Source: a virus
Reading direction: 5' to 3' (one strand)
Virus record (IMG/VR): IMGVR_UViG_3300043313_001243
Span: 1-47,767 of that record
Length of the DNA stretch: 47,767 bases
Numbering within the stretch: the stretch's first letter is position 1; each line of letters begins with the position of its first letter. Under the pieces are notes generated by a model, which was given only the letters and a program-made list of their open reading frames with translations, did not search any database and was not told the origin of the DNA. The translations under genes were made by a program, and so were the position numbers. Shown here piece by piece: positions 2,188-33,329 of the stretch.

Positions 2188-2613
2188 GTGGCACCGACCC
2201 CTGAAGTCAATCGCATGCGGTTCGCGCAGTTCGTCGCGCGGACCCTCGCCGGTGCGCGCGACCGCGGCATGACTGACCGGGACATCCACGCCGCGACCGG
2301 GGTCCCGCCGAGCACCTTCCATCGCTGGCAGAAGGGGCAGGTCGCCACCGCGCCCGACCTCGACAAGGTCAAACGCTTCTGCGAAGGGCTCGGCGTCAGC
2401 GTCACGGCCGCCATGACCGCGCTCGGCCTGGCGCCCGGCCGCGACACCACCGAACCGGAGCCGCCGCTCCCGCCGGAGATCCGCACCATCCTGCGCCGGC
2501 TCGCCGACCCCAACGTCCCGGAGTCCGACAAGCTCGTCATCCGGGAGATGCTCAGGATGCTCGCGCAGCAGGCCCGGCGCACCGAGCCGCCGCCACGGGA
2601 GGGGACAGCCTGA
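2188..2613 (+). CDS. Lysogeny repressor candidate with Xre-type HTH (141 aa)
   Basis: GTG 2188 is chosen because TACCGT lies six bases upstream and because the region before it is not protein-like; ATG 2215 is possible. Residues about 10-75 hold a lambda-repressor-type HTH (GMTDRDIHAATGVPPSTFHR then WQKG), recognition helix around PPSTFHRW. The C-terminal part is a Pro linker plus a helix (VPESDKLVIREMLRMLAQQA) that could dimerise. The TGA overlaps the integrase ATG (TGATG), coupling repressor and integrase expression. It is divergent from the early operon across the 1924-1966 operators. Together with int this forms the immunity/integration switch. Confidence 0.75.
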   Translation: MAPTPEVNRMRFAQFVARTLAGARDRGMTDRDIHAATGVPPSTFHRWQKGQVATAPDLDKVKRFCEGLGVSVTAAMTALGLAPGRDTTEPEPPLPPEIRTILRRLADPNVPESDKLVIREMLRMLAQQARRTEPPPREGTA

Positions 2614-3851
2614 TGGCGCGCAAGCGGCAGCCGGTCATCAGCAAGGGCAGCGACGGGCAGTTCCACGCCTGGGTGACCGTCGGCACCAAGACGAACGGCC
2701 GCCCCGACCAGCGTCACGTCAAGCGGGCCACGGAGGCCGAGGTCGAGGAGCGCGTAGACGAGCTGCTCGACCAGGTGCGGGCGGGTGCGGTCGTCAAGGC
2801 GGGCCGCGGGATGACCGTCGAGCAGTGGCTGACGGTCTACCTGGAGACGGTCGCGCCGCGCCGCTGCGACCCGACCACGATCTACGACTACCGGTCCAAG
2901 ATGCGCAACTGGGTGTATCCGGTCGTCGGCGGCGTCCGGGTGGATCGCCTGCGGCCCGACCAGCTCGACGAGGTGTACCTGCGGATGGCGCGCGCGGGCA
3001 AGGCTGACAGCTCGACGTTGAAGGTGCACCGCATCCTCACCCGCGCCCTGGAGATCGCGTTCCGGCGGGGTCTGGTGCCGCGCAACGTCGCGAAGCTCAT
3101 CGACTCGCCCACGGTGAAGCGGGTCGAGATCCTGCCGCTGAGCGAGGCCGAGGCCGTCGCCGTGCTCGACAAGGCGATCGCGTCGCGTCGGCGCAACACG
3201 GCCCGCTGGTCGGTGGGGCTGGCGCTGGGCCTGCGTCAGGGTGAGGCGCTCGGCCTGCGCTGGCCGTACGTCGACCTGGAGCGCGGCGAAATCCGGGTGT
3301 GGTGGCAGCTGCACCGGCGAGCGTTCGAGCACGGCTGCGGCGGCACGTGCGGGCGCCGTCGCGGCGGGAACTGCCCGGCGAAGGTGCTGCCGCTGCGCTC
3401 CGGCGAGCAGGTCGCGACGGGCGGGCTGATCCTCAAAGAGCCGAAGGGTAAGAGCAAGCGGACGATCCCGATCCCGGTCGAGCTCGTCGAGGCGCTGAGG
3501 GTGCACCGGGAGGTGCAGGGGTTCGAGCGGCAGTACGCCGAGTCGGCCTACCTGAAGCACGGGTTCGTGTTCGCTCACCCCGACGGCCGGCCGCTGGACC
3601 CGGGTGACGACTTCGACGACTGGAAGGGTCTGCTCGCCGCGGCGGGTGTGCGTGACGCGCGGGTGCACGACGGGCGGCACACAGCGGCGACGCTTCTGCT
3701 GGCGCAGGGCGTGCGGCTGGAAGTGGTGCAGGAGATCCTCGGCCACTCCGACATCCGGGTGACGCGGGGCTACTCGCACGTGGCGTCGGCGATGGCCCGG
3801 GCGGCGACCGACGGCATGGGCGCGGCGCTGCTGCGCAAGCGGCTACCGTGA
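2613..3851 (+). CDS. int: Tyrosine recombinase, phage integrase
   Basis: 412 aa, ATG coupled to the repressor stop. Order of domains: basic N-terminal arm-binding region (1-65), core-binding SAM-like domain (about 67-165), catalytic domain (about 175-400). Catalytic residues visible: Arg208 (GLRQGEALGL), His352 and Arg355 (HDGRH), His378 (LGHSD) and nucleophile Tyr387 (TRGYSHV); Lys276 or nearby is the likely beta-hairpin lysine. A Cys-rich insert at about 240-256 (HGCGGTCGRRRGGNC) is common in actinobacterial integrases. It would recombine attP at 4600-4650 with a tRNA-Thr(CGT) gene; the arm repeats at 4505-4526 and 4720-4741 are the expected N-domain sites. Confidence 0.95.
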   Translation: MARKRQPVISKGSDGQFHAWVTVGTKTNGRPDQRHVKRATEAEVEERVDELLDQVRAGAVVKAGRGMTVEQWLTVYLETVAPRRCDPTTIYDYRSKMRNWVYPVVGGVRVDRLRPDQLDEVYLRMARAGKADSSTLKVHRILTRALEIAFRRGLVPRNVAKLIDSPTVKRVEILPLSEAEAVAVLDKAIASRRRNTARWSVGLALGLRQGEALGLRWPYVDLERGEIRVWWQLHRRAFEHGCGGTCGRRRGGNCPAKVLPLRSGEQVATGGLILKEPKGKSKRTIPIPVELVEALRVHREVQGFERQYAESAYLKHGFVFAHPDGRPLDPGDDFDDWKGLLAAAGVRDARVHDGRHTAATLLLAQGVRLEVVQEILGHSDIRVTRGYSHVASAMARAATDGMGAALLRKRLP

Positions 3852-3856
3852 CCGCC

Positions 3857-3895
3857 ATGCCCAACCTGACGGCAGCCGGGAGGCTCGCGCGATGA
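3857..3895 (+). CDS. Possible 12-aa leader peptide coupled to next gene
   Basis: ATG 3857 encodes MPNLTAAGRLAR and stops with a TGA that overlaps the ATG of the DUF5662-like gene (ATGA at 3892). The Shine-Dalgarno of the downstream gene (GGGAGG) lies inside this mini-frame. It may serve translational coupling from the integrase transcript, or may be chance. Confidence 0.3.
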   Translation: MPNLTAAGRLAR

Positions 3896-4515
3896 CCAGC
3901 TACGACAGCGTCCCCGACACGCTCAAGCACTCTCTGCGCGTCGGCAGGCTGATGGGCCAGCCGATCCGTGAGCTGGTCACCCGGTCCACAGAGCACGACC
4001 ACAGCAAGACGGTGATGCCGGAGCAGAGCGTCTTCGACGAGTTCACACCGAAGTTGAAGCACAGCACGTACGGCAGCGACGAATACAAGGGCTTCCTGGC
4101 TGCCATGAAGGTCGGGCTGGACCACCACTACGCGAGCAACCGGCATCACCCCGAGCACTTCGGCGAGGCCGGAATCAACGGCATGACGCTGGTCGACCTC
4201 ATCGAGATGCTGGCCGACTGGAAGGCGGCCACCGAGCGACACGACGACGGCAGCCTCTCGAAGAGCCTCACGATCCAGAAGGAGCGCTTCGGGATCTCCG
4301 ACCAGCTGCTCCAGATCCTGGAGAACACGGCCCGCTGGTTCGAGTGGCTGGACTGCGGCGCCGAGCACACCGCGCCGGACGGCACCAAGATGCGATGCAA
4401 CTTTGGAGCCCACCAGCCGCACGCTCTGCACTGCGACGGCCGGTTCGAACCGTACGACTGGCCGGTGACGGAAGGTGATGCACCGGTCGGTCGCGAGGCG
4501 GCCAATACACCCTGA
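3892..4515 (+). CDS. DUF5662-like protein (207 aa)
   Basis: ATG 3892 with GGGAGG 8-9 nt upstream. The sequence has the His/Asp-rich pattern of the DUF5662 family found in phages and bacteria: EHDHSK near residue 35, LKHSTYGSDEYK at about 57-70, then DHHYASNRHHPEHFGE at about 77-95 and GMTLVDLIEMLADWKAATER at about 100-120. The spaced H and D residues suggest a metal-binding, HD-like helical enzyme, but the substrate is unknown. The C-terminal region has Cys residues (LDCG, MRCN, HCDG). It sits between int and the attP core; the last codons overlap the first arm-type repeat. Likely a lysogeny-expressed accessory gene. Confidence 0.75.
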   Translation: MTSYDSVPDTLKHSLRVGRLMGQPIRELVTRSTEHDHSKTVMPEQSVFDEFTPKLKHSTYGSDEYKGFLAAMKVGLDHHYASNRHHPEHFGEAGINGMTLVDLIEMLADWKAATERHDDGSLSKSLTIQKERFGISDQLLQILENTARWFEWLDCGAEHTAPDGTKMRCNFGAHQPHALHCDGRFEPYDWPVTEGDAPVGREAANTP

Positions 4516-4590: not shown

Positions 4591-4600
4591 CCGCTTACCC

Positions 4601-4646
4601 GAGCCGCCTGACGGAATCGAACCGTCGACCTACGCATTACGAGTGC
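4601..4646 (-). pseudogene. 3' half of tRNA-Thr(CGT), att core identity block
   Basis: Read on the minus strand this is anticodon loop CTCGTAA, the 3' side of the anticodon stem, variable loop AGGTC, a perfect T arm (GACGG TTCGATT CCGTC) and acceptor 3' strand AGGCGGC plus T. The 5' acceptor strand (expected GCCGCCT) and the D arm are absent, and upstream bases give a mismatch in the anticodon stem. It is therefore the partial tRNA carried by the phage to restore the host gene on integration, not a functional tRNA. Confidence 0.85.
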
Positions 4647-4766
4647 CTCCGAAGTTCCTGCACCACTATGCGTAGCCTGCAAATGTGTACCCCTGCGCAA
4701 GGGTGCGCAACGCTATGCAGTACACCCTGGGGTACACCCTGCCCCCTGTACGCAGGGTGACCACCG

Positions 4767-6954: not shown

Positions 6955-7188
6955 TCATTCGCCAGCGTCGTCCTTGCGTTGAGGGAGCTTGGCATCGGGC
7001 TTCCTGAGGTACCAGCGCATGAATTCGCGGATGACACCTGACCGGCTGTCCTCGCCGCCGGAGGTCGCCTCGCCGAACTCGTCCCACAGGTCGGGTTCCA
7101 CCCGGATGGTTCGGCGGTCGGTGCCCTTCGACGTCACAAGGGACAGGGTGTCATGACCAACAAGGGGATCGTGCGTTGTAGGTGTCAT
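6955..7188 (-). CDS. Ribbon-helix-helix (Arc/MetJ-type) repressor of the transfer module
   Basis: 77 aa from ATG 7188; GTG 7137 would give a shorter 60-aa form starting just before the conserved part. The RHH fold is visible: beta strand TDRRTIRVEPDLWDEFGEA (about 23-41), helix 2 after a Gly-rich turn (SRSGVIREFMRWYLRKP, about 48-65). Such dimers bind palindromes through the paired beta ribbon. Two perfect GGTGTCATGACACC palindromes overlap this gene's start and that of the divergent membrane gene, and a third near-copy lies inside the coding region, so autorepression and control of the transfer-like operon are strongly indicated. Confidence 0.85.
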   Translation of the reverse strand: MTPTTHDPLVGHDTLSLVTSKGTDRRTIRVEPDLWDEFGEATSGGEDSRSGVIREFMRWYLRKPDAKLPQRKDDAGE

Positions 7189-7220
7189 GACACCATGCTA
7201 GCTTGGGTGTCATGACACCC
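7146..7220. promoter_or_regulatory. RHH operators with overlapping divergent leaderless promoters
   Basis: Perfect palindromes at 7181-7194 (GGTGTCATGACACC) and 7205-7220 (GGGTGTCATGACACCC), plus GGGTGTCATGACC at 7146-7158. The ATG of the minus gene (7188) and of the plus gene (7212) are the central ATG of the two perfect palindromes. The -10 elements TAGCAT (minus strand, 7200-7195) and TAGCTT (plus strand, 7199-7204) share bases and end 6 and 7 nt before the two ATGs. Neither gene has a Shine-Dalgarno sequence. Binding to both palindromes would block both promoters. Confidence 0.75.
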
Positions 7221-7496
7221 GCTAGTGCAAGCAAGCGGCGTCGCGTCGCGCTGTCATTCATCCGTCGTCACCGCCTCTCCCTAGCGGTCTCCACCGTCCT
7301 CGCCGGCCTCGCGCTGAACGTGCTGGTGCAGGACGGGGTGAAGCCGTTCCTGATCGTCGTGGCCGCCGGGGTCGGCTACGTGCTGGTGCTCGGCTCGGTC
7401 GGCTGGCTGACCGGCGCGCAGGTCGTGAGGCATTCCCGGCGTGAGGCTGCGGCGATCCAGGCGGGCAAGCACTCTGCGAAGGAGCTGACCCAGTGA
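7212..7496 (+). CDS. Small two-TM membrane protein, first gene of transfer-like operon
   Basis: 94 aa from ATG 7212 inside the operator; TTG 7203 and GTG 7209 are less likely. Basic N-terminus (SKRRRVALSFIRRHR), hydrophobic segments at about 22-38 and 45-68 (FLIVVAAGVGYVLVLGSVGWLTG), basic C-terminus. Its TGA overlaps the GTG of the DUF2637 gene in GTGA. Size and position resemble the small Spd membrane proteins that act with TraB in Streptomyces plasmids, but I cannot show homology. Confidence 0.65.
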   Translation: MTPASASKRRRVALSFIRRHRLSLAVSTVLAGLALNVLVQDGVKPFLIVVAAGVGYVLVLGSVGWLTGAQVVRHSRREAAAIQAGKHSAKELTQ

Positions 7497-8290
7497 CCGA
7501 CCTGCCGAAGCTGCGCCGGATCCGGTGGGCGGCGCGTGGCGTGCTCGTGCTGGGCCTGCTCGCGTCGACCGTCGGCAACGTGCTGCACGCGCAGCCGAAG
7601 TTCGTCAGCCAGGCGATCAGCGCGTGGCCGGTCCTCGCCCTGTATCTGACCATCGAACTGATCGCCCGCGTGCCGATGCACCGCACCGGCCTCGCGGTCG
7701 GGCGGGTCCTCGCTACGGCGGTCATCGCCGGGATCGCGGCGTGGGTCAGCTACTGGCACATGGCGGCGGTCGCGTCGGAGTACGGGGAGACGGCGCCGAG
7801 CCAGTACCTGCTGCCGTTCTCTGTCGACGGGCTGATCGTCATCGCGTCGATCTGTCTTGTTGAGCTGGGCGGCCGGATCGCGGCCGCCGAAACCGAAGGG
7901 GTCACCGATGGGCAAGAGACTGGAGAACCTCGGCCGGAAGGCGAACGCGGCGATCACCGCGATGGAGGCGAAGGAAGTAGCCGCCTACGCGAAGGTGACG
8001 CGGCGGGACGCGGACCGGCGGGAGGCGGAGATCCTGCGCCGGTCGGCGACGGTGCTGCGCCGGAAGTAACGCCCGCCGAGCGGGTCAAGTTGACCCGGCC
8101 GCGGAAGCGCCCGCCGACAGTCGCGGGGAAGGTCGCCCGCGCGCACAAGCAGAACCCGGACGCGTCGCACGCCGAGCTCGCGAGGCGGCTCGACTTGAGC
8201 CCCGCCACGGTGAAGCGGCACCGGCCGAAACCAGAGCAGATCAACGGCAACGTGCCGGCACTCGTCGGCACCAGCGAGGAGGAGAACTGA
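7493..8290 (+). CDS. DUF2637 membrane protein with C-terminal HTH, Spd-like
   Basis: 265 aa, GTG 7493 in a GTGA overlap. N-terminal domain (about 1-130) has four hydrophobic segments (ARGVLVLGLLASTVGNVL, WPVLALYLTIELIAR, VLATAVIAGIAAWVSY, VDGLIVIASICLVELGGR), the pattern of DUF2637 proteins of actinomycete plasmids and integrative conjugative elements. A low-complexity linker (about 131-195) follows, then a C-terminal HTH-like region (HAELARRLDLSPATVKRHRP, about 228-247). In plasmids such proteins accompany TraB in intramycelial spread (family knowledge). The linker codons have unusually low GC at third positions because a second gene runs through them in another frame. Confidence 0.8.
   Translation: MTDLPKLRRIRWAARGVLVLGLLASTVGNVLHAQPKFVSQAISAWPVLALYLTIELIARVPMHRTGLAVGRVLATAVIAGIAAWVSYWHMAAVASEYGETAPSQYLLPFSVDGLIVIASICLVELGGRIAAAETEGVTDGQETGEPRPEGERGDHRDGGEGSSRLREGDAAGRGPAGGGDPAPVGDGAAPEVTPAERVKLTRPRKRPPTVAGKVARAHKQNPDASHAELARRLDLSPATVKRHRPKPEQINGNVPALVGTSEEEN
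7908..8069 (+). CDS. Nested out-of-frame gene: 53-aa charged helical protein
   Basis: ATG 7908 with GAAGGGG ending about 8 nt upstream, TAA 8067, wholly inside the DUF2637 gene in another frame. The protein (MGKRLENLGRKANAAITAME, AKEVAAYAKVTRRDADRREA, EILRRSATVLRRK) is a continuous amphipathic basic helix. In this stretch the nested frame has about 90 percent G or C at third codon positions, while the DUF2637 frame has about half, the reverse of the rest of that gene. This says selection on codon use follows the nested frame. The DUF2637 frame encodes only a Gly/Glu/Arg linker here. Confidence 0.6.
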   Translation: MGKRLENLGRKANAAITAMEAKEVAAYAKVTRRDADRREAEILRRSATVLRRK

Positions 8291-8430
8291 TGACGCGTAC
8301 GGGTGGCCGGGTGAACGACGCCGGCAAGGTCGAGAAGGGGCGGATGCCGAAGGGTCACTGCGACCCGTGGGGCGAGCCGAGCACGTTCAAGGACGGACCG
8401 ATGCGGATCTTCCGGAAGAAAGGCAAGTAG
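8290..8430 (+). CDS. Small basic protein (46 aa)
   Basis: ATG 8290 overlaps the DUF2637 stop by one base (TGATG) and has a strong GAGGAGGAG site upstream. Sequence MTRTGGRVNDAGKVEKGRMP, KGHCDPWGEPSTFKD, then MRIFRKKGK. One Cys, Gly/Lys-rich, basic tail. No family recognised. First of five consecutive small charged proteins leading to the translocase gene. Confidence 0.6.
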   Translation: MTRTGGRVNDAGKVEKGRMPKGHCDPWGEPSTFKDGPMRIFRKKGK

Positions 8431-8550
8431 ATGCCAAAAGGCAGCGAGTACCGCCTACAGCAGGCAGCGGATCTACAGCGCAGGCTGGCAGAAGCCCGAC
8501 GCAAAGACCAGGAGCAGGCCCGCCGAGATCAGGAGAGCAGGAAGCGCTGA
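8431..8550 (+). CDS. Very small charged helical protein (39 aa)
   Basis: ATG 8431 follows the previous stop directly, with GAAAGG 8 nt upstream. Sequence MPKGSEYRLQQAADLQRRLA then EARRKDQEQARRDQESRKR is an Arg/Gln/Glu-rich single helix. Ends at TGA 8550, which overlaps the next ATG. Function unknown; composition suggests binding to nucleic acid or to the acidic parts of a partner. Confidence 0.55.
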   Translation: MPKGSEYRLQQAADLQRRLAEARRKDQEQARRDQESRKR

Positions 8551-8705
8551 TGGCGAACAGGTACGGCACACCTGACAGGGGCGACGCGGAACGAGCGCGC
8601 GCTGCGCGGCAGGCGGCCAAGGCGGCGGCGAAAGCCGAGGCGGCGAAGTCCCGGGCGGACCAGGTCAAGACGCTGGACAAGTGGCGCAAATGTGGATCGC
8701 ACTAA
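8550..8705 (+). CDS. Small Ala/Lys/Arg-rich protein (51 aa)
   Basis: ATG 8550 overlaps the previous TGA (TGATG), with AGGAAG 8 nt upstream. A central Ala/Lys/Arg helix (ERARAARQAAKAAAKAEAAK, about 14-33) resembles histone-H1-like or DNA-coating tails. One Cys near the end. Same operon as the translocase. Confidence 0.6.
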   Translation: MANRYGTPDRGDAERARAARQAAKAAAKAEAAKSRADQVKTLDKWRKCGSH

Positions 8706-8719
8706 CAGAGGGGCAAGTG

Positions 8720-8902
8720 ATGGCACGCACGACGGGCTGGGACGGCAAGCCGCTGTCCGAGAAGGACAAGAAGTTCTATGCCCTGCGCGACTCGGGCTAC
8801 AAGGGCCCGATCGACCAGGACGGCAACAAGGACACCACGAGCGAGGGTGCCGCGATCCTGCGCCGGATGGCCCAACGTCGCGGCGAGAAGACGGACTGGT
8901 GA
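8720..8902 (+). CDS. Small conserved-looking protein (60 aa)
   Basis: ATG 8720 has GAGGGG 6 nt upstream. Sequence MARTTGWDGKPLSEKDKKFY, ALRDSGYKGPIDQDG, AAILRRMAQRRGEKTDW. Hydrophilic, probably folded around YALRDSGYKGPID. The TGA overlaps the next ATG (TGATG). Family not recognised. Confidence 0.6.
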   Translation: MARTTGWDGKPLSEKDKKFYALRDSGYKGPIDQDGNKDTTSEGAAILRRMAQRRGEKTDW

Positions 8903-9090
8903 TGGGGATCTTCGGCAATGACAAGCAGGTCAGCCAGCGTGCCGACGGCGCGAAGGTGACCGAGACGAAGAACAAGACCCGGGTTAAGTACCCGAACGGC
9001 GACTTCGAGGTCCACGACAAGAAGCGCGGCACCAGCACGTCGTGGTCGCTGACCCGGGCGGACGGCAAGCGCGAGCGCGACGGCCAGTAA
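8902..9090 (+). CDS. Small hydrophilic beta-type protein (62 aa)
   Basis: ATG 8902 overlaps the previous stop. Sequence MGIFGNDKQVSQRADGAKVT, ETKNKTRVKYPNGDFEVHDK, RGTSTSWSLTRADG. Alternating charged/hydrophobic residues suggest a small beta-sheet protein. It ends just before a strong hairpin that separates the small-peptide run from the translocase gene. Confidence 0.6.
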   Translation: MGIFGNDKQVSQRADGAKVTETKNKTRVKYPNGDFEVHDKKRGTSTSWSLTRADGKRERDGQ

Positions 9091-9097
9091 CAGCAGC

Positions 9098-9128
9098 GGG
9101 CGCGACCGGTAGCGGACCGGTCGCGCCC
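9098..9128 (+). terminator. Hairpin before the translocase gene
   Basis: Perfect 13-bp stem GGGCGCGACCGGT (9098-9110) with its complement at 9116-9128, loop AGCGG, followed by TTATCC. It is likely to attenuate transcription into the FtsK-type gene, lowering translocase relative to the small proteins. Confidence 0.7.
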
Positions 9129-9156
9129 TTATCCCTCTGCAAGGAGCAGCAACATC

Positions 9157-11217
9157 ATGGCAGAGATCCAGGCGGGGCCGCCCGAACCCGACGACGCCGG
9201 CCCGCGCCCGGACGACGCCGAGTCGTACGTGCAGGAGCCGACCGTGCACGTCAAGGTGACGTCGCAGCCGGAACCGCCGACGGTGTACGCGACCGTCACG
9301 CAGCTCGCCACGTCCGAGCGGCGGCCGATCATCCCGGCGTGGATGCGGACCTCCGACGCCCGCCGGGTGTTCCTCGCGCAGATGTGGGGCCTGTTCTGGT
9401 ACTCGGTCATGCTGCAAGCCTGGTCAACCCCGGGGTATCTCGCGAAAGCCGCCTACTACGCGCCGTGGGGGTTGCTGAAGTTCACCGGCCGGCAGCTGCG
9501 CTGGATGTGGCATCCGGAACTCACGCAGATGATGCAGCACTCGGCGACCGCGAACGACGTCACCGAGGGCATGAGGGCGGCCGACAAGGTCTCAGCCGCG
9601 CGTAAGGCCCGCGCGTACCTACTGCTCGCCGAGCTGGTCGCCGCGGTCGTCGGGGGGCTGCTGCTCTGGTACATGGCGCCGTGGTGGGTGTTCTGGCTGG
9701 CGGTGGCGGTCGCTGTGCCGGTGTTCGCCCGGATCGGCCGGCCGGAGGAGAAGCCGATCATCCAGCACGTGACGGTCGGAAAGCGGTTCACCCGCCTCAC
9801 GCAGGAGCAGGTCCGTAACGCGCTGGTGGCGCTACGGCTGACCGGGCTCACGAAGCCGGGCGACATCTCGTTTCCGCCGCCGGGTGTACGCGGCGATGGG
9901 CCGGGGTGGCTGGCTCGGTTCGACCTGCCGCCGGGGCTCGTTGCCTCCGACGTGCTCGCCAAGCGCGACCGCCTGTCCGGTGCGCTGCGCCTGCCGCTCG
10001 ATCAGGTGTGGCCGGAGGTCGGGCCCGAGCACCTCGCGCAGGTCGACCTGTGGGTCGGGTTCAAGCCGGCGTCAGCGATGGGCGAACCGAAATGGGACCT
10101 GGCCAAGCCGACCGCGGCGACCAGCATCTTTGAGCCGCACGCGTTCGCCACCGACGCCCGCGGCCGGCCGATCGACATCATCCTGTTCCAGCGCAACATC
10201 CTCATGGGCGGGCAGCCGGGCGCGGGGAAGTCGTTCGGTGCCCGCGCCATCATGACGATCGCCGGGCTGGATCCGACGTGTGAGATGAAGGTCGCCGAGT
10301 TCAAGGGCGTCGGCGACTTCCTCGACCTGGAGCCGCTGTGCACCGACTACGCGTGCGGGGTCGACGACGAGGCATTCGACATCGGCGAAGCCATCATCGA
10401 CTGGGCGCTGGCCGAGTGTGAGCGGCGCGGCGCCCGGATCAAGAAGCTGCGGCAGACCGGGGTATGCCCGGACGGGATGCTCACCCCGGAAATCGTGCGC
10501 AAGGTCCGCGGCCTGCACCCGGTGGTGATCCTGATCGACGAGCTGCACGAGCTGCTACTGAACCGCAAGGGCGTCGCCGAGAAGCTGGAACGGGTGCTGC
10601 GCCGCGGCCGCGCCATGGGCATCATCTTCATTCTGGCCACGCAGATCCCGGACGCGAACACCATCCCGACCGGCATCACGAAGATGGTCTCGATCCGGAT
10701 CTGCATGTCGGTCGCGGACTGGCAGTCGAATGACCAGATCCTTGGCACCGGCGCCTACAAGCGCGGCCACACCGCCACCATGTTCCGGCCCGGCTACGAC
10801 CAGGGGTGGGGCGTCATGCAGGGCCTGCGCCGCGACGGCGAAACCGGCCGCACCTACTTCCCGGACCCGGAAGCCCGGGCGGCGATCGTCGAGCGGATGC
10901 GGGTGCTGCGCGGCGGCAAGGTTGTCGGCGACCAGGGCGAGAAGCTGAAGGCGCGGGACATGTTGGCCGACGCCCGGTCGTGCCTGCGCAACCACGAGGC
11001 CGGCGTGCCGTGGGGCGTCCTCGCCGATCGGCTCGCCGAGTTGGACCCGGAGACGTACGCGGGCATCACCGGGGACATGGTCCGGACGGCGCTCGAGCGG
11101 TACGACATCGTCACCGACGACGTGAAGGTGAAGGTCGACGGGAAGTGGACCAACCTTAAGGGGATGCGCCGCAAGGCCCTCGAGGACGCGATCGCCAAGC
11201 GTGCGATCGAGGGCTGA
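9157..11217 (+). CDS. FtsK/SpoIIIE-type DNA translocase, TraB/TraSA-like
   Basis: 686 aa, ATG 9157 with AAGGAG 9 nt upstream. Layout: acidic Pro-rich N-terminus (1-50), hydrophobic pair (about 150-190, LLLAELVAAVVGGLLLWYMA and WWVFWLAVAVAVPVFA), linker domain (200-340), RecA-like motor with Walker A GQPGAGKS (352-359) and Walker B VVILIDE (456-462), then ILATQ and a C-terminal winged-helix-like domain (about 610-686). This is the plan of the hexameric double-stranded-DNA pumps of Streptomyces-type conjugation (TraB) and of FtsK. In TraB the C-terminal wing recognises 8-bp repeats in clt (family knowledge); a cluster of 9-bp repeats follows this gene. In a phage it could move phage DNA between mycelial compartments, or help resolve recombination near attP. 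Confidence 0.9.
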   Translation: MAEIQAGPPEPDDAGPRPDDAESYVQEPTVHVKVTSQPEPPTVYATVTQLATSERRPIIPAWMRTSDARRVFLAQMWGLFWYSVMLQAWSTPGYLAKAAYYAPWGLLKFTGRQLRWMWHPELTQMMQHSATANDVTEGMRAADKVSAARKARAYLLLAELVAAVVGGLLLWYMAPWWVFWLAVAVAVPVFARIGRPEEKPIIQHVTVGKRFTRLTQEQVRNALVALRLTGLTKPGDISFPPPGVRGDGPGWLARFDLPPGLVASDVLAKRDRLSGALRLPLDQVWPEVGPEHLAQVDLWVGFKPASAMGEPKWDLAKPTAATSIFEPHAFATDARGRPIDIILFQRNILMGGQPGAGKSFGARAIMTIAGLDPTCEMKVAEFKGVGDFLDLEPLCTDYACGVDDEAFDIGEAIIDWALAECERRGARIKKLRQTGVCPDGMLTPEIVRKVRGLHPVVILIDELHELLLNRKGVAEKLERVLRRGRAMGIIFILATQIPDANTIPTGITKMVSIRICMSVADWQSNDQILGTGAYKRGHTATMFRPGYDQGWGVMQGLRRDGETGRTYFPDPEARAAIVERMRVLRGGKVVGDQGEKLKARDMLADARSCLRNHEAGVPWGVLADRLAELDPETYAGITGDMVRTALERYDIVTDDVKVKVDGKWTNLKGMRRKALEDAIAKRAIEG

Positions 11218-11218
11218 C

Positions 11219-11374
11219 GTGTCGCGGCGACCCCACCCCCTCACACCCGCGTTTCAGGCCGTTTCCGGGGGGTTGGCGCACGGGCCGCGACACGCGACAT
11301 CTGGCCGTTTCCGCAGGCCATGCCGTGTCGCGGCCCGTGTCGCGGAACCGCGACAAGATTCTGGTCCGCGACAC
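11219..11374. repeat. Cluster of GTGTCGCGG repeats, clt-like or operator array
   Basis: Copies of GTGTCGCGG: plus strand at 11219-11227, 11325-11333 and 11337-11345; minus strand (CCGCGACAC) at 11285-11293, 11348-11356 (one mismatch) and 11366-11374; a degenerate copy overlaps 11293-11300. All lie in the 171-bp gap directly downstream of the translocase gene. Repeats of similar length at the 3' end of traB are the TraB-binding clt site in Streptomyces plasmids (known for that family). A regulator operator for the gene at 11389 is the alternative. Confidence 0.7.
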
Positions 11375-11388
11375 GGAATCGGGGACCG

Positions 11389-11628
11389 ATGATCGGCTGG
11401 CTGATCCTCGCCGGGGTGGTCTGGATCGTCCTGTACGCCGGGGTGTGTGCGGTGTGGCCGTGGGGCCGGTGCGGTCGCTGCGACGGCAGCGGGCGCAAGT
11501 ATCAGCCGCTGTCCCGCAAGAAGAACTGGCGGGACTGCCGCAAGTGCGGCGGCACTGGTCGGCGGGTCCGCCTCGGCCGCCGGTTCTGGTCCTGGGTCGG
11601 CAAGCGCAAGCACGACGCGGTCGGATAG
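11389..11628 (+). CDS. Membrane-anchored zinc-finger protein (79 aa)
   Basis: ATG 11389. One TM segment (MIGWLILAGVVWIVLYAGVC, residues 1-20) is followed by two DnaJ-type half fingers, CGRCDGSGRK (about 30-39) and CRKCGGTGRR (about 50-59), with a basic C-terminus. The CxxCxGxG pairs should bind one zinc. Last gene of the transfer-like module, after the repeat cluster and before a terminator. Such small CxxCxGxG membrane proteins occur in actinomycete plasmids; the role is unknown. Confidence 0.65.
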   Translation: MIGWLILAGVVWIVLYAGVCAVWPWGRCGRCDGSGRKYQPLSRKKNWRDCRKCGGTGRRVRLGRRFWSWVGKRKHDAVG

Positions 11629-11702: not shown

Positions 11703-12002
11703 CTAGTGCAGGTAGGTGGTGGTCAGCACCTCGGACCAGGCGATGCGGGGCTGGCCGTACGCGTGAGCCACCTCGGGCAGCGTCTCCTGCAGCCGGCCGG
11801 CGACCCCGGCGTGGATCTCCACCCAGAAGTTGCAGCCGGTCCAGTGCGCGACCGGCTGCGAGTACCAGTCGGCGAGGATGCGGCCGCCGCCGCGGATCAG
11901 TTCCTCGACGATGGCGTCGTGGTACTGGATCCACTGGACCTGGCTCAGACCGGTGTCGTTGCCGATCGCGACGAAGACGGTGATCGGCGGCTCCGGGGTC
12001 AT
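11703..12002 (-). CDS. Hypothetical 99-aa late protein
   Basis: ATG 12002 overlaps the holin stop in ATGA. Sequence begins MTPEPPITVFVAIGNDTGLS; globular, with Trp residues and the segment CNFWVEIHAGVAGRLQETLP. No signal or TM. Last gene of the leftward late operon, immediately after the holin. It may be a lysis accessory or a moron gene; I cannot assign a family. Confidence 0.6.
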   Translation of the reverse strand: MTPEPPITVFVAIGNDTGLSQVQWIQYHDAIVEELIRGGGRILADWYSQPVAHWTGCNFWVEIHAGVAGRLQETLPEVAHAYGQPRIAWSEVLTTTYLH

Positions 12003-12376
12003 ACCGCGATGTGCGTCGGAGTGTCAGAGCCCCAGCCGACTGCGGTGGCGGTCTTCGGCGACACGGCCGGCGCGAGGGTGATGCCCAGGGCGGACAGCAC
12101 GGCGAACGCGATCAGCAGCCAGTCGTTGCTGTCGACGCCGCCGACGATGACCGTGGTCGCGATCTGCAGCCCGGCGAGCACAGCGCCGATGGCGGTCTTG
12201 ACCCAGGTGGCGGACGGCACCAGCGGGACGAGGTAGGTCAGCAGCGCGGTGCATATCGCGATGGCGATCGCGACGCCCTCGGACGGGTCGACGTGGTGGT
12301 CGCCGGAGAACTGCGGCACCGCGACGATGGCGACCGCGTAAAGCGCGGCCATGATGCTCTTGCCGTATTCCTGCAT
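11999..12376 (-). CDS. Putative holin (125 aa, several TM segments)
   Basis: ATG 12376 with CAGGAG 6 nt upstream; the long upstream extension of this frame runs through the tRNA-like element and is spurious. Hydrophobic segments at about 8-24 (IMAALYAVAIVAVPQF), 37-57 (VAIAIAICTALLTYLVPLVP), 62-82 (VKTAIGAVLAGLQIATTVIV) and 88-106 (WLLIAFAVLSALGITLAPAV). The order and spacing match actinophage holins, where GVxVAIAxxTALxTYLVP is typical. Works with the endolysin at 13292. Confidence 0.7.
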   Translation of the reverse strand: MQEYGKSIMAALYAVAIVAVPQFSGDHHVDPSEGVAIAIAICTALLTYLVPLVPSATWVKTAIGAVLAGLQIATTVIVGGVDSNDWLLIAFAVLSALGITLAPAVSPKTATAVGWGSDTPTHIAV

Positions 12377-12424
12377 GTCAACTCCTGACAACATTGCGTG
12401 AGGGAATGATTGCGGAGCGAACTG

Positions 12425-12446
12425 CACCATAATGGTAATTATGGTG
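12425..12446. promoter_or_regulatory. AT-rich palindrome upstream of the holin gene
   Basis: Perfect 9-bp inverted repeat CACCATAAT (12425-12433), GGTA, ATTATGGTG (12438-12446), in an AT-rich island (12420-12460) that is strikingly different from the flanking 70 percent GC. It sits 50 bp upstream of the holin start and just downstream of the tRNA-like gene. A regulated promoter for the lysis gene or a short RNA hairpin are the options. Confidence 0.5.
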
Positions 12447-12485
12447 TCGTCATATATTGGGGCGATACGGACAGCGCGCCGGGCG

Positions 12486-12573
12486 CCAGGGGGCGGCGAT
12501 TTGAACCCGCGTCCTCCGGCCGTCGTCGGTCTCAGACCTAGGCCGGTGCTCTGCCGAGCTGAGCTACCCCTGA
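12486..12573 (-). tRNA. tRNA-like gene with enlarged anticodon loop, identity unclear
   Basis: Minus-strand elements in order: acceptor TCAGGGG, TA, D arm GCTC...GAGC, anticodon stem CCGGC(C)/(G)GCCGG, variable loop AGGAC, T arm GCGGG TTCAAAT CGCCGC with one bulged base, acceptor CCCCTGG. All joints have canonical spacing except the anticodon loop, about 21 nt instead of 7, with an inner GGTC-TGA-GACC hairpin. If T33 follows the stem directly the anticodon would be AGG, but this is uncertain. CCA is not encoded. Could be a degraded tRNA, a tRNA with an insertion, or a tRNA mimic. Confidence 0.5.
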
Positions 12574-12588
12574 ACGCCCGGCGCGGGA

Positions 12589-12882
12589 TCAGGTGATCAG
12601 CCCGGACGGGTACGGCGGTGGCGGTGGCGGCCGGCCGTCGGCGATGTGCCGGCGCAGCTCGCCGATGTAGTCGCCCTGGACGCGGGCCACCCGCTCGAGT
12701 TGGTTGATCCGGCCCCACTGCGCAGCCGTCTCGGTCCGCAGCGCGGCGATGTCCTCCTGGTGCTGGTCGATCATCATCATGCCCGCGTCGGACTTCTGCT
12801 TGCGGGCCGACGCCCGGTAGGTAAACAGGGCGGCGACGATGGCGGCGAGCGCGGCCAGCGCAGCGGTCAGGATCGCTTCCAT
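12589..12882 (-). CDS. Single-TM coiled-coil protein of the lysis region (97 aa)
   Basis: ATG 12882. N-terminal TM segment (ILTAALAALAAIVAALFTYR, about 4-23), basic stop-transfer, then a long helix (MIDQHQEDIAALRTETAAQW, INQLERVARVQGDYIGELRR, about 36-80) and a Pro-rich tail (PPPPPPYPSG). This topology is common for accessory lysis proteins in actinophages, either a second holin/antiholin or a spanin-like component. It overlaps the upstream membrane gene by 16 bases. Confidence 0.65.
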   Translation of the reverse strand: MEAILTAALAALAAIVAALFTYRASARKQKSDAGMMMIDQHQEDIAALRTETAAQWGRINQLERVARVQGDYIGELRRHIADGRPPPPPPYPSGLIT

Positions 12883-16089: not shown

Positions 16090-17999
16090 GACGACACCGG
16101 CCGCACCGGCGACAGGTAGCGCGGGAAGTACGACGGGGTCACGGTGATCGATCCGGCGATGTCGTCGCCGGCGCCGGTGATCGCGGTGCCCGTGCCGGTG
16201 TCGCGGGCGACGAAGATCCGGTTGGTGCGCCCGGGGCTGACCATCAGGCCCTGACCGGCGATCTCCACCGCCTCGGTCGAGATGACCTGGCCGGCCGCAC
16301 CGCGCCCGTACGCGGCCGGGCTGGTGCCGCCCACCGCCATGTAGTCCACCACGGTCGGGCCTCCGGCCGCGGCGGGCCACGTGATCATTTCGAGGGTGTC
16401 GTCGGCGGGGACGAACAGCAGTAGGTCGACGTCCAGGCTGCCGGCGCCGGACACCCGCTGCGCGTCGAAGGCCACGAACAGGCCCTCGGCGGCGATCTCC
16501 ACCCCCGACGGGCCGCGATAGACGGGGTCGTAGTCGACGGGCACCTGGATGACGTCCAGCTCGACGTACTTGATCGTCGGCGTGCTGGGCCCGGTGTCGG
16601 CCGGCAGGCGCACCGTCGTGCCGGTGCGCTGCACGTCGATGCCGCCCCAGCGCAGCCGCACGTCGATGACGTCGGTGGAGGTGTTCTGCCGCACCCGGGC
16701 CAGCACCCGGTAGGTGCCGCGGGCGTCGATGCTCGCCGACGGCGGGAAGGTGCCCGACAGCCGCTGCGTCATCGACGTCGACGCGACAAACGTGGTCCGG
16801 CTGAAGTTGTTACCGGCCGGGCCGGACATCAGCGCCGAGTTCGGCTGCGTGGTGGTCACCGCGCCCTGGGTCATGTCCTCGGCCTGCAACACGATCGGCA
16901 ACGCCGACGGGGTGCCGCGCCGGCGGACGGCGAGCATCGTGCGGCGGCGTCCGGTGGCCACCACCCCACCGGAGGCGATCTGCAGGTGCAGGGGCGTCTC
17001 GACGTCGCCTTTCGGGCTGGCCACGTCGAAGCACATGCCGCCGAGGTCACCGGCCCGCCGGATCCGAGCCTCGTCGATGTGCAGGGTGTTGCCCGCGGGC
17101 GGCGTGCCCGTCATCGCCACGGTCAGCCCGATCCGGCCGGTCAGGGCCGGGCTTGTGCCGCCGGCCTGGATCAGGGTCCAGGTGTTCAGCGTGACCGCCG
17201 AGCTTTGGATCGTGTTGGAGATGAACCCGTCGGCGGCGGTGTAGTAGTCGATGCGGACTTCGACGTTGCGGGACGCCGCGCAGCGCACCCATACCGACGC
17301 CCGGTATGCCGTGGCCGGGGTCGCGCCGGTCAGGTGCGGGTTGGTCTCCGTCTGCGCCGTCCCGCTGACGCCGTTCGGGGTGAGCAGGCCCGACGCGGCG
17401 CCCTCATGGAACTGCGCCGTCGACCTGACGAACGTGCCGCCGGTGGCGACCCAGCCGGACACGTCCGTCTCGAAGTACGGGTTCGGGTTGAGCGTCGTGC
17501 CCTCGACCGGGTCGTTGTACACGGTCACCGCGGACAGGGTTTCCTCGATGCCGTACGCGAACGGCTCGGCGAGCAGCGAGATGGTGGCCTCGCGGTTCAC
17601 CGGATCCCAGTCGATGGCATCCGGGCCCGAACGGTACGTCCGGAAGAACACCGGCGCGCTCGTGCCTGCCTGCAGTCGCAGGATATTCGACGGCCGGTCC
17701 AGCTCCCGCATGAGCAGCTGCATCTGGGCCGCGCCCGGATCGGCGGCCGTTTGCACACCGCCGGACAGCAGTTGCAGCTTCAGGAAGATCGTCCGGTTGT
17801 CGTATGCGGCGCTGGTCGGGATTCCCCCGTCGCCCATCAGTGACTGGGGGATCGCACGGCGCAGCGGCGGCGGATCGAACCGGGACGCATCGCGCAGATT
17901 CCACGGGCCGCGGGTGCCCTGGTGCACGTCCAGTCGGACCGCCGGCGAGGCGGTGATCGAGTCGACGAACGCCAGCTGCCACTTCTCGACGGCGGTCAC
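16086..17999 (-). CDS. Distal tail-type protein with carbohydrate-binding module (637 aa)
   Basis: GTG 17999 overlaps the tape-measure stop in GTGA. The N-terminal region (1-160) fits a Dit-type hub ring protein. A module beginning NPNPYFETDVSGWVATGGTF (about 170) and running to about 320 (LHIDEARIRR) has the jelly-roll pattern of CBM4/9-like carbohydrate-binding domains. A second beta-rich region (about 370-540, SRTTFVASTSMTQRLSGTFP... LDVDLLLFVP) follows. Order TMP - Dit - hub is standard. The binding module suggests recognition of a cell-wall or capsule glycan. Confidence 0.75.
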   Translation of the reverse strand: MTAVEKWQLAFVDSITASPAVRLDVHQGTRGPWNLRDASRFDPPPLRRAIPQSLMGDGGIPTSAAYDNRTIFLKLQLLSGGVQTAADPGAAQMQLLMRELDRPSNILRLQAGTSAPVFFRTYRSGPDAIDWDPVNREATISLLAEPFAYGIEETLSAVTVYNDPVEGTTLNPNPYFETDVSGWVATGGTFVRSTAQFHEGAASGLLTPNGVSGTAQTETNPHLTGATPATAYRASVWVRCAASRNVEVRIDYYTAADGFISNTIQSSAVTLNTWTLIQAGGTSPALTGRIGLTVAMTGTPPAGNTLHIDEARIRRAGDLGGMCFDVASPKGDVETPLHLQIASGGVVATGRRRTMLAVRRRGTPSALPIVLQAEDMTQGAVTTTQPNSALMSGPAGNNFSRTTFVASTSMTQRLSGTFPPSASIDARGTYRVLARVRQNTSTDVIDVRLRWGGIDVQRTGTTVRLPADTGPSTPTIKYVELDVIQVPVDYDPVYRGPSGVEIAAEGLFVAFDAQRVSGAGSLDVDLLLFVPADDTLEMITWPAAAGGPTVVDYMAVGGTSPAAYGRGAAGQVISTEAVEIAGQGLMVSPGRTNRIFVARDTGTGTAITGAGDDIAGSITVTPSYFPRYLSPVRPVSS

Positions 18000-20900
18000 G
18001 CGAACCCCCTAAGAATGTGGTCGAACGATGCGCCCAGGCGCCGGTTGACTTCGGCGGCGATCTGCTGCGGCGACTGGTTGGCGCCCTGGATGACGATGGT
18101 CGGCGCGACCGTCACCTGGTTGACGACGGTCCTGCCGCCGCCGGCCGAGGCCATCGGCTGGGCGATGCCCGGCGTGACCGTCTCGGGCCGGCCGCCCTCG
18201 CCGAACTCGTAGGTGGCGCCGGACGCGCCGACGCCGAACACCGGCTCGCGGATCACACCGCCGTTGGCCATGGCCACGTGCACGTGATTTCTGTGCTGCT
18301 GCATCAATGTGTTGTTGAAGCTGCCCTTGTTGCGGCCGCGGGTGTAGGCGTAGTCGCGGTGCTTCGTCCGGTGGATCAGCTCGAGGGGACGCTTCGACGC
18401 GAGGAACGTGGCGAGGGCGTCCTGGTTGTAGCCCATCCAGTCGACGGCGCGACCGGAACCGTGCCAGAGCGGGTCACCCGCTCTGTAGCCGTTGCCAAAA
18501 CTGCCGGACAGCGGGCCGGTGGACTTGATGAGGCGGACCACGTCGCGCCAGACGCCGGAGTCGCCGCGCTGCGCGCTCGGTGAGGACGGCCAGTTGCCGA
18601 ACGACGGGGCCACCTTCGACAGCGCCTCCGCCATCGTGATGACCTTCGTCATGCTGGCGTTGACCCGGAACGGCATGGTGGCGACCCGACCGCCGCCGGC
18701 GTACCCGGGCAGCTGCCCAGTGGCGTGCACCTCGTCGAGGAAGCCCGGCGCCTGACGGTCGATCTTCCGGACCGTCTTGGCGTTGAACACCATCTCCTGG
18801 CCGTGCACGATGCCGGCCGGCTCGTGCTCGCCCATGTTGCCGGTGCGGCCACCGGCGCGGAATCCGCTCGCGTTCTTGTTGAACGCGGAGTTCGCGGCGC
18901 TGATGGAGATGCCCTTCTGGGCGGCCTGCTGTGCGACGAGGAGCTTCTTCAGCCGGGCGTACGCGGCTGCGTCGCCGGTGACTGTGACCTTGGTGTTGAC
19001 CTTGCCGGGGATGTCCTCGTACTTGCCGATGAGCTTCTGGACCTCTTTGCGGGTGAAGCCCATCTTCTCGGCGGTCTTGCCCAGCGTGCCGATCTGGTTG
19101 CGGTACTTCTTGTCCGCGTCGTCGACCGACATGCCGTTGCGGATGTTCGCCTCACGCTGATCCTTGATGCTCTTGATCAGATCCAGCACTGAGGAGCGGT
19201 TCTTGCGGCCTGCTTCCGAGTTGGCCGACAGCGTCTTCGTGCCGCTCTTCAACTCCTTGTTGGTGGCGGCCAGCGTCTCCTGGTAGTTCATGGCCGCCTG
19301 ATCGGCGGACATGTACCTGTCGAACAGGTCGTCGAAGGCCTTCTCGACCGCCTCGGCGGCCTCCTTCTCCTTCTCGAGCTGCTCCGTCGTCTTGCCGGTC
19401 TGCGCGGCCAGCTGACCCTGCGCGCCGGCGCTGCTGTGCGCGGTCTCCTGCAGCTTGGTCATCGCCGCTGACGTCTGCGGCAGCAACTGCTGCAGCTGCT
19501 GGGTGTCCAGGCCGGACTTGAGCAGGATCTCGTTCCAGAGCTCGCCGGCCTTCTTTGCGTCCTTCTGCGTCGCGATGAACGCGGTGAACGACTCGTCGAG
19601 GGCCCGCATCTTGTCTGTGGCGTCGTTGAAGCTGGTCCCGGTCAGGGACTCGTTCATCGAGTCGACGACGGACGAGACGCCGGGGACGGCGCTGGTCAGG
19701 TCGTTGAGCTGCTTCCAGAAGCCGTGCGTGGCAGCCTCGGCGGACCCGGCGATCAGCGACAGATCCTCGAGGTTGGCACCGAACTCGTCGGTGATCCCCT
19801 GGGTCATCTTGCCGGTGGTGGAGTAGTCCTGCAGGGCGGCGGTCAGCTTGTCGACGTTCACCGCCGAGTTGCCCAGCTGGTCGAAGACGGCGCCGGCGAC
19901 CTCGAGTCCGACGAACGCGACCGCGGCCCGACCGGCCCACTTCGACGCCGCCTGCAGCCCGACCGCCGCCTTCGCGCCGGCTGGGCCGACCGCGTTCAGC
20001 TCGGTGACGGTCGCCGCGATCGCGGTCCGGGCCTTCACCCAGGCGACACCGGCCAGCGTCAGCGCGCCGCCGACCGCGGCCATCACGGTCAGCGTGCCTG
20101 TGAGTGCCGGCGGCAGTTGGCCGACAGTCCCGACGAATGCGTCCGCGGACTTGGTGAGCACCCGCAGGCCCTCGGTGAGGCCGCCGCCGGCCTGGATCGC
20201 CTGCGTCTCCAGCGAGCCCTTGAGTCGCTCGAGGTCGCCGGCGAGGTTGTCGGTCTTCATCGCCGCGGTCTCGGCGGCGTAGCCGGCGTCGTTCGTCTTG
20301 TCGATCCACGCCTGGATCCCGTCGGCGCCCTGCTCATACAGGATGTTCGCGGCGCGGGTGGCGTCGGAACCGAAGATCTGCGCCATGGCGTTGGCGCGCA
20401 GCTCCGGGGTCAGCTTGGACAGCTGCGTCTTCAGCTGCCCGGCTAGCGCGGTGATGCCGATGAAGTTGCCCTGGACGTCGTAGGCGGACACGCCCAGGTC
20501 GTCCATCAGCTCCTTGGTCTTGCCCGACGGTGCCTGCAGCGCCTGCAGCATCGTCTTGAAACTGGTACCCGCGTCGGAGCCGATCAGCCCGGCCGAGGCG
20601 AACGCGGCCAGCGTGCCGGTGGTGTCCTCGATGCTCAGCCCTGTACCGGCGGCGATGAGACCGGCCTGGTTCAGGGCGGCGGACATGTCCTGCACCGAGC
20701 CCTGCGCCTTACCCGCCGCAGCCGACAGCAGGTCCGCGACGTGCGGAACGTCCTGGCCCTTGAGCTTGAACTGGGTCAGGGCGGATGCTGCGGTCTCCGC
20801 GGCCTGGCCGACGTCGAGCTGCCCGGCCGCCGCCAGGTCGAGGGCGCCCTTCAGGCCACCACCGAGGATGTCGGCGGTGGAGACGCCCGCCTTGGCCAGC

Positions 20901-21244
20901 TCCTCGACACCCTTGGCCGCCTCGGTCGCTGAGAACTGGGTGTCCTTGCCCGCCTTCAGCGACGCCTGCCGCAGCGCGTCGATCTCGGCGGAGCTGGCGT
21001 GCGTGGCCGCCTTCACCGACGACATCTGCTTCTCGAAGTCCATCGAGAACTTCACGGCCATGCCGGCGGCGCCGACCAGGCCCAGACCGAGGCCGGTCGC
21101 GGCGCCGGTCAGCTTGTCGAGGTTGCCCTTCTTGTCGGCCGCCTGCAGCTCGTGGGTCAGGCCTTTGACGTCGTTGCTGGCGCCCTGCACGCTGCGCCGG
21201 AACTGGGTGGCGTCGGCCATGAGCTTGACGGAGACGGTGCGCAC
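17996..21244 (-). CDS. Tail tape measure protein with C-terminal peptidase-like domain
   Basis: 1082 aa, GTG 21244. Residues about 55-380 show the TP901-type tape-measure core (FEKQMSSVKAATHASSAEID, LRQASLKAGKDTQFSATEAA, GVEELAKAGVSTADILGG). Two hydrophobic stretches at about 370-450 (LTVMAAVGGALTLAGVAWVK, AVAFVGLEVAGAVFDQL) could help membrane passage. A Lys/Glu coiled coil lies at about 600-640. The C-terminal domain (about 880-1010) with GSGRAVDWMGYNQDALATFL and HRNHVHVAMANGG resembles D-Ala-D-Ala carboxypeptidase/M15-type peptidases. The protein sets tail length and probably digests peptidoglycan during injection. Preceded by frameshifted chaperone genes. Confidence 0.9.
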   Translation of the reverse strand: MRTVSVKLMADATQFRRSVQGASNDVKGLTHELQAADKKGNLDKLTGAATGLGLGLVGAAGMAVKFSMDFEKQMSSVKAATHASSAEIDALRQASLKAGKDTQFSATEAAKGVEELAKAGVSTADILGGGLKGALDLAAAGQLDVGQAAETAASALTQFKLKGQDVPHVADLLSAAAGKAQGSVQDMSAALNQAGLIAAGTGLSIEDTTGTLAAFASAGLIGSDAGTSFKTMLQALQAPSGKTKELMDDLGVSAYDVQGNFIGITALAGQLKTQLSKLTPELRANAMAQIFGSDATRAANILYEQGADGIQAWIDKTNDAGYAAETAAMKTDNLAGDLERLKGSLETQAIQAGGGLTEGLRVLTKSADAFVGTVGQLPPALTGTLTVMAAVGGALTLAGVAWVKARTAIAATVTELNAVGPAGAKAAVGLQAASKWAGRAAVAFVGLEVAGAVFDQLGNSAVNVDKLTAALQDYSTTGKMTQGITDEFGANLEDLSLIAGSAEAATHGFWKQLNDLTSAVPGVSSVVDSMNESLTGTSFNDATDKMRALDESFTAFIATQKDAKKAGELWNEILLKSGLDTQQLQQLLPQTSAAMTKLQETAHSSAGAQGQLAAQTGKTTEQLEKEKEAAEAVEKAFDDLFDRYMSADQAAMNYQETLAATNKELKSGTKTLSANSEAGRKNRSSVLDLIKSIKDQREANIRNGMSVDDADKKYRNQIGTLGKTAEKMGFTRKEVQKLIGKYEDIPGKVNTKVTVTGDAAAYARLKKLLVAQQAAQKGISISAANSAFNKNASGFRAGGRTGNMGEHEPAGIVHGQEMVFNAKTVRKIDRQAPGFLDEVHATGQLPGYAGGGRVATMPFRVNASMTKVITMAEALSKVAPSFGNWPSSPSAQRGDSGVWRDVVRLIKSTGPLSGSFGNGYRAGDPLWHGSGRAVDWMGYNQDALATFLASKRPLELIHRTKHRDYAYTRGRNKGSFNNTLMQQHRNHVHVAMANGGVIREPVFGVGASGATYEFGEGGRPETVTPGIAQPMASAGGGRTVVNQVTVAPTIVIQGANQSPQQIAAEVNRRLGASFDHILRGFA

Positions 21245-33315: not shown

Positions 33316-33329
33316 GGGGGGTGCTCCCT

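Follow-up and report, generated by a model that had tools for sequence, protein, structure and literature searches.

A predicted TraB/clt-like DNA transfer module in the genome of a temperate siphophage

The window analysed in this study is the entire IMG/VR record IMGVR_UViG_3300043313_001243, a stretch of viral DNA of 47,767 bp. Genes were called by codon composition, and the encoded proteins were searched against Pfam and PHROG. The window carries the gene set of a temperate siphophage, comprising a tyrosine integrase of 412 aa (2613-3851, plus strand; Pfam Phage_integrase, E 2e-22; phrog_1 integrase, E 7e-57) and, on the minus strand, a tape measure protein (17996-21244; PhageMin_Tail, E 7e-48; phrog_1533), a major capsid protein (29043-30230; SU10_MCP, E 2e-77; phrog_1328), a portal protein (31834-33375; SPP1_portal, E 4e-33; phrog_104) and the terminase large subunit (33330-34961; phrog_19179, E 2e-133). 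The attP core at 4599-4649 duplicates the 3' portion of tRNA-Thr(CGT), with 98% identity over 51 bp to Micromonospora genomes, in which the match is located within tRNA-Thr(CGT). Because of this match the host probably lies in or near Micromonosporaceae, and the Micromonosporaceae-like attB suggests mycelial growth. A DUF5662 protein (Pfam, E 6e-33) is encoded at 3892-4515, between the integrase gene and attP. No known phage was matched in a megablast search with the first 25 kb of the window. An initial reading made from the sequence only (the sequence-only reading) had described a complete siphophage genome; the integrase, head, tail, portal and terminase genes agree with the siphophage assignment, but no terminal repeat was found in the 47,767-bp record and a minus-strand ORF at 1-134, beginning MTSTFDPEATTVDVLDRTRNLAPFQIQ, is truncated by its first base, so that completeness and circularity are unproven.

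The region of interest starts with an RHH (Arc-like) regulator of 77 aa (6955-7188, minus strand; phrog_6506 Arc-like repressor, E 9e-5), which is divergent from the remaining genes of the module. Two identical 14-bp exact palindromes, GGTGTCATGACACC, situated 25 bp apart and with no further copies in the window, cover both divergent start codons, and are the putative binding sites of the RHH protein. Operator 1 (7181-7194) overlies the start codon of the RHH gene, and operator 2 (7206-7219) overlies ATG 7212 of a small protein with two TM segments predicted from hydropathy (94 aa; 7212-7496, plus strand). The latter gene had been listed from TTG 7203; ATG 7212 is the likelier start because it lies inside the operator. 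The dedicated RHH switch postulated earlier is supported in the window by the repressor match and the operators at the divergent starts. A search for a repeated 10-bp palindrome in stretches of the relatives L086 and L088 found none there, which speaks against an operator common to these phages.

The small membrane protein is followed by a DUF2637 membrane protein of 265 aa with a C-terminal HTH (7493-8290, plus strand; PF10935, 39.2 bits at a cut-off of 22.8; HTH_24 over its cut-off). This protein also matches PHROG 733, named excisionase, a label that may be wrong for the DUF2637 family. Comparison with SpdB2 of plasmid pSVH1, which is itself without a Pfam match, gave an hhalign probability of 5%, and this profile comparison gives an SpdB2 identity no support. 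Five small charged ORFs, read from the sequence, occupy 8290-8430, 8431-8550, 8550-8705, 8720-8902 and 8902-9090 on the plus strand, and phage G004 encodes, at the matching place, a relative of the stretch 8681-8902 with 75% identity. All these components of the module, namely the DUF2637 protein, the second small membrane protein and the charged peptides, are present as had been described.

Downstream of the pump gene, which is discussed below, a small protein of 79 aa with one TM segment and a CXXCXGXG-type zinc ribbon is encoded at 11389-11628 (plus strand; predicted start; Pfam DnaJ_CXXCXGXG below cut-off), and its homologues follow the pump in 69 loci. A holin-like protein with four TM segments by hydropathy (11999-12430, minus strand) is a portion of the 11999-12718 frame and matches phrog_565 holin weakly (E 0.002). 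Of the proposed location of the module between attP and a lysis cassette, the attP side stands; on the other side there is this weak holin match and, further on, the tail genes, and a 222-aa protein earlier assigned to the cassette has no family match in profile searches.

The largest gene of the module (9157-11217, plus strand) encodes a TraB/FtsK-type dsDNA translocase of 686 aa, recognised by Pfam, PHROG and hhalign searches, an AlphaFold2 model and structure matches. Its Walker A (GQPGAGKS, aa 352-359) and Walker B (VVILIDE, aa 456-462) motifs are both intact, and two hydrophobic TM segments (aa 155-173 and 176-194) also form helices in the model. A profile of 72 pump relatives was aligned by hhalign with pSVH1 TraB at a probability of 100% and E 4e-49 over 523 columns, the match spanning the motor and the C-terminus. 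The AlphaFold2 model (pLDDT 89) matches the FtsK motor fold with Z 31.8 and TcpA, the conjugation coupling protein of pCW3, with Z 27. The NCBIfam plasmid_TraB model did not match the pump, and pSVH1 TraB itself scores far below the cut-off of this model. The hhalign and structure comparisons support a place for the pump among the TraB-like members of the FtsK superfamily, in line with the FtsK/TraB-type pump of the sequence-only reading. The dN/dS values of 0.29 and 0.27 relative to the closest phage copies indicate purifying selection and a pump that is in use.

The last 89 residues of the pump (aa 598-686; 10948-11214, plus strand) are modelled as a winged helix (pLDDT 90) with the order helix-strand-helix-helix-wing, in which aa 655 is predicted to read the base. 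The fold matches of this domain are mostly winged-helix proteins and are weak (Z 7.9 or less). In 9 of the 72 family members the C-terminal domain has a sequence link to DUF3631, which is the Rep domain of pMEA300-type AICEs (actinomycete integrative and conjugative elements); in view of this relation, the pump and the replication initiator may have a DNA-binding domain in common.

The repeat cluster noted behind the pump proved to consist of seven copies of TGTCGCGG within 11220-11373, located at 11220 (plus), 11285 (minus), 11292 (minus, one mismatch), 11326 (plus), 11338 (plus), 11348 (minus) and 11366 (minus). Against these six exact copies and one near copy, the remaining 47.6 kb of the window contain 8 exact copies. 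The array fills the gap between the pump stop codon and ATG 11389, and is considered intergenic because the zinc-ribbon gene most likely starts at this ATG. Inside the array, a conserved box, ATGGCCTGCGGAAAC (11307-11321, minus strand), matches CTGACCTGCGCAAAC of pSVH1 at 12 of 15 positions. The latter plasmid served as a positive control, in which GACCCGGA, the TRS known from the literature, was found 16-110 bp after the TraB stop codon, followed by the box CTGACCTGCGCAAAC.

Enrichment of such repeats is family-wide as well as local. At least 6 copies of an 8-mer occur within 200 bp 3' of the pump gene at 100 of 152 loci, compared with 7.3% of 4,560 control windows, and a pSVH1-type box matching at 12 of 15 positions or better was found at 16 of 52 phage loci, compared with 2.2% of controls. 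Arrays with at least 6 copies were present in 55 of 62 AICEs and 24 of 52 phages, and the lower regularity in phages may reflect loss of the array from some phage copies. The repeat type varies by lineage (TGTCGCGG, GGTCGCGG, GGTAGCGG, GGTAACGG and CTAGC) while the spacing is conserved. The CTAGC-type arrays lie behind most AICE pumps of the family (L003, L023, L026, L031 and others), and look like undescribed clt sites. With respect to the pump, the entire array (11218-11388) is flipped in the window and likewise in L086, L088, L090, L092, L093 and L075, and its spacing is kept despite the inversion, being about 18-10-12-34-7-65 for the reversed window and 18-12-12-41-7-69 for L012.

The clt of plasmid pWTY27 begins within the 3' end of traA, includes 159 bp downstream and is bound by TraA (PMC3583192). 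By its TRS-like repeats and position, the set of repeats behind the phage pump is a clt-like array, newly recognised here. Other roles of the repeats were considered and rejected: attP is the tRNA-Thr copy about 6.6 kb distant; a terminator could account for the inverted pairs, but not for the number and spacing of the copies or for the covariation seen across the family; and genome-wide guide sequences are ruled out by the clustering of the repeats in one locus. The view of a plasmid-like module within a phage is borne out by the combination of a TraB-side pump with a clt-like cis site.

The sequence of the repeats is correlated with that of the pump. In a covariation set of 28-31 loci with the single repeat class [GT]GTXYCG, the base Y tracks pump residue 655, located at the base of the wing. 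Where Y is G, this residue is D (16), N (6) or S (1); where Y is A, it is G, T or V; and where Y is C, it is K or R. Residue 655 (D655 in the window) ranks 1 of 659 columns, and keeps this place with the set reduced to 19 or 11 rows, the associated shuffles being ones that ignore relatedness. The phage loci obeying this rule are the window, L087, L088, L089, L092, L097, L104 and L163. The chemistry of residue 655 fits a contact with the complementary base, Asp/Asn with cytosine and Lys/Arg with guanine, and on the basis of the covariation the pump is predicted to bind its own repeats.

Relatives of the pump are encoded in 94 IMG/VR stretches. Among 50 records with a pump relative that were searched whole, a terminase accompanies the pump in 37 and a DUF2637 protein in 25. 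The terminase-encoding records include pPaSha2, a closed circular plasmid of Pseudonocardia alni. In phage G002 the DUF2637, pump, zinc-ribbon and tail genes are ordered as in the window, and the pump is 76% identical. Among cultured phages only distant partial matches to the pump were found. Related pumps are also encoded in Micromonospora sp. ATA32 and Microtetraspora glauca. AICEs that carry primase-polymerase or Rep clusters make up most of the best 80 genome loci. Phage and AICE labels are intermixed in a tree of 147 pumps, with at least 8 changes forced by well-supported branches; the position of pSVH1 TraB in this tree is unreliable owing to its long branch. The clade of the window comprises phages L086, L087 and L088 and is nested in a larger clade with AICEs. 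Some pump-bearing phage records (G003, G016, G019, G020, G023, G036, G040 and G044) contain a stop inside the terminase match, for which reason some of them may be decaying prophages that lost virions and retained the pump.

Two findings had been named in advance as grounds for dismissing the module. An assembly chimera with a separate integrated plasmid is ruled out by the G002 synteny and by the same arrangement in independent records, including the closed pPaSha2. A degenerate pump is ruled out by the intact motifs and the dN/dS values, close relatives keeping an intact pump.

Based on homology, the clt-like array and the covariation of base and residue, the module likely moves phage DNA between hyphae. 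We consider it rather probable that the region is a working TraB/clt-type dsDNA transfer module owned by a temperate siphophage, with loading at the array and operating alongside virions. We infer binding, regulation, motor action, transfer and the form of the DNA moved as follows. In the lysogen, the RHH protein on its two operators would hold the divergent operon and its own gene low, and relief of this repression would lead to synthesis of the pump, the DUF2637 protein and the small membrane proteins. Pump hexamers, anchored via the N-terminal TM helices, would be loaded at the array that immediately follows the pump gene, where the C-terminal winged helix would read the 8-bp TGTCGCGG-type repeats and residue 655 would contact one base pair. 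The FtsK-type motor would drive excised circular phage dsDNA through septal cross-walls, perhaps into neighbouring hyphae, and integration into tRNA-Thr would fix the transferred DNA. Virions would constitute the second route, with the same genome packaged.

The sequence-only reading had listed segregation, recombination at attP and exclusion of other elements as alternatives. The main rival to transfer is a role in inheritance, in which the pump would clear phage DNA from septa as they close or place it on one side of them, such as in prespores, as FtsK/SpoIIIE do for the chromosome. The motor fold is indeed that of FtsK, and the functions of plasmid spread and stability overlap (PMC4170104). 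However, the repeats form one 154-bp cluster in both orientations, whereas KOPS-like guides would be genome-spread and skewed; the array resembles proven clt; and a partition pump is unneeded by an integrated prophage. Since the repeats are confined to one locus and the module is common to integrating AICEs, transfer is favoured, and inheritance appears unlikely, if still worth serious consideration. A function of the pump in packaging or replication of phage DNA or in attP recombination, not in cell-to-cell movement, has a precedent in phage Geonosis, for whose FtsK-like protein a replication role has been suggested (PMC11536984). Given that the phage encodes its own terminase and that the array is not part of attP, this function has very little probability.

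Exclusion, in which the clt-bound pump or the membrane proteins would keep related plasmids, AICEs or phages from entering or spreading, would agree with the lineage-specific repeats, as the pump would act only on elements bearing its own repeats. Exclusion alone would require neither a functional motor nor a cis array belonging to the element, yet both are kept under selection, and this explanation is regarded as similarly improbable. The many AICE pumps in the pump clade could also point to a hitch-hiking AICE fragment that landed in a phage and is now decaying. Its pump would hardly be expected to keep intact motifs and dN/dS of 0.27-0.29, to share position and neighbours with G002 at 76% identity, or to recur across phages with different terminases, and a decaying fragment is the least probable of the explanations considered.

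The transfer reading can be extended to a general one, for which we see the balance as even: many temperate actinomycete phages would be dual-mode elements, possessing virions and also a TraB/clt module that is exchanged with AICEs and moves prophage DNA through the mycelium and into neighbours without lysis, and in which a winged-helix base code ties each pump to its own clt. Some phages, at least, may spread both as particles and via direct DNA transfer. If true, virions and TraB-type conjugation, the two main gene-transfer routes of actinomycetes, are joined in one widespread kind of element, which would account for the spread of a prophage throughout a mycelium that stays alive. A direct, testable means to find clt in AICEs is offered by the residue-655 code together with the predicted clt arrays, and the sharing of pumps between co-resident elements becomes testable.

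Elements combining phage and conjugation functions are already known. The Streptomyces plasmid-phage pZL12/phiZL12 has phage structural genes and conjugal transfer in one element (cited in PMC3583192 and PMC4487206), and phiNon1 is another plasmid-phage (PMC5431353). Unlike the phage of the window, pZL12 is a plasmid that encodes ParA and ParB for its own partition, and it was rejected as a relative of the pump: a tblastn search of a phage collection that includes pZL12 did not match it, which places its transfer genes outside the pump family. The present case differs in its route: many records show integrating siphophages that carry a TraB/clt module of AICE type, for which both a clt and a recognition rule are predicted. 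No earlier report of such a module was found in the open-access literature searched, most subscription papers lying outside this scope. Streptomyces phage Gilgamesh likewise has an FtsK-type motor in its genome, but this protein is 31% identical over only 42% of the pump and forms a long branch outside the family. The closed circular pPaSha2 (41.9 kb) carries terminase, portal, capsid and integrase genes and then DUF2637, pump and holin genes in the order of the window. Its pump, in contrast, is 33% identical, and no regular repeat array is evident behind it.

With AICEs the window shares an integrase with a tRNA attP and the same pump subfamily, the nearest clades including AICE pumps. Unlike AICEs, it has terminase, portal, capsid and tail genes, and blastp clustering found no AICE replication clusters (primase-polymerase/Rep) in the window, including beside the pump, where an AICE would combine integrase and tra genes with a replication gene (RepSA, RepAM or Prim-Pol). 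The TraB/clt systems of pSVH1 and pWTY27 differ from the module in being located on Streptomyces plasmids and not within a phage having head and tail genes, and in the regulator, which is GntR in Streptomyces plasmid TraB systems and RHH in the window. The window pump is about 24% identical to pSVH1 TraB, the repeat sequence is different, and the array orientation is inverted compared with many relatives. The systems have in common an FtsK-type pump with an N-terminal TM region and a winged helix at its C-terminus, a gene for this pump that is followed at once on its 3' side by 8-bp repeats, membrane-protein genes upstream and a divergent regulator (PMC3583192), and the gene order is alike in pSVH1, which runs from a divergent regulator through small ORFs, the SpdB2 membrane protein and a small ORF to TraB.
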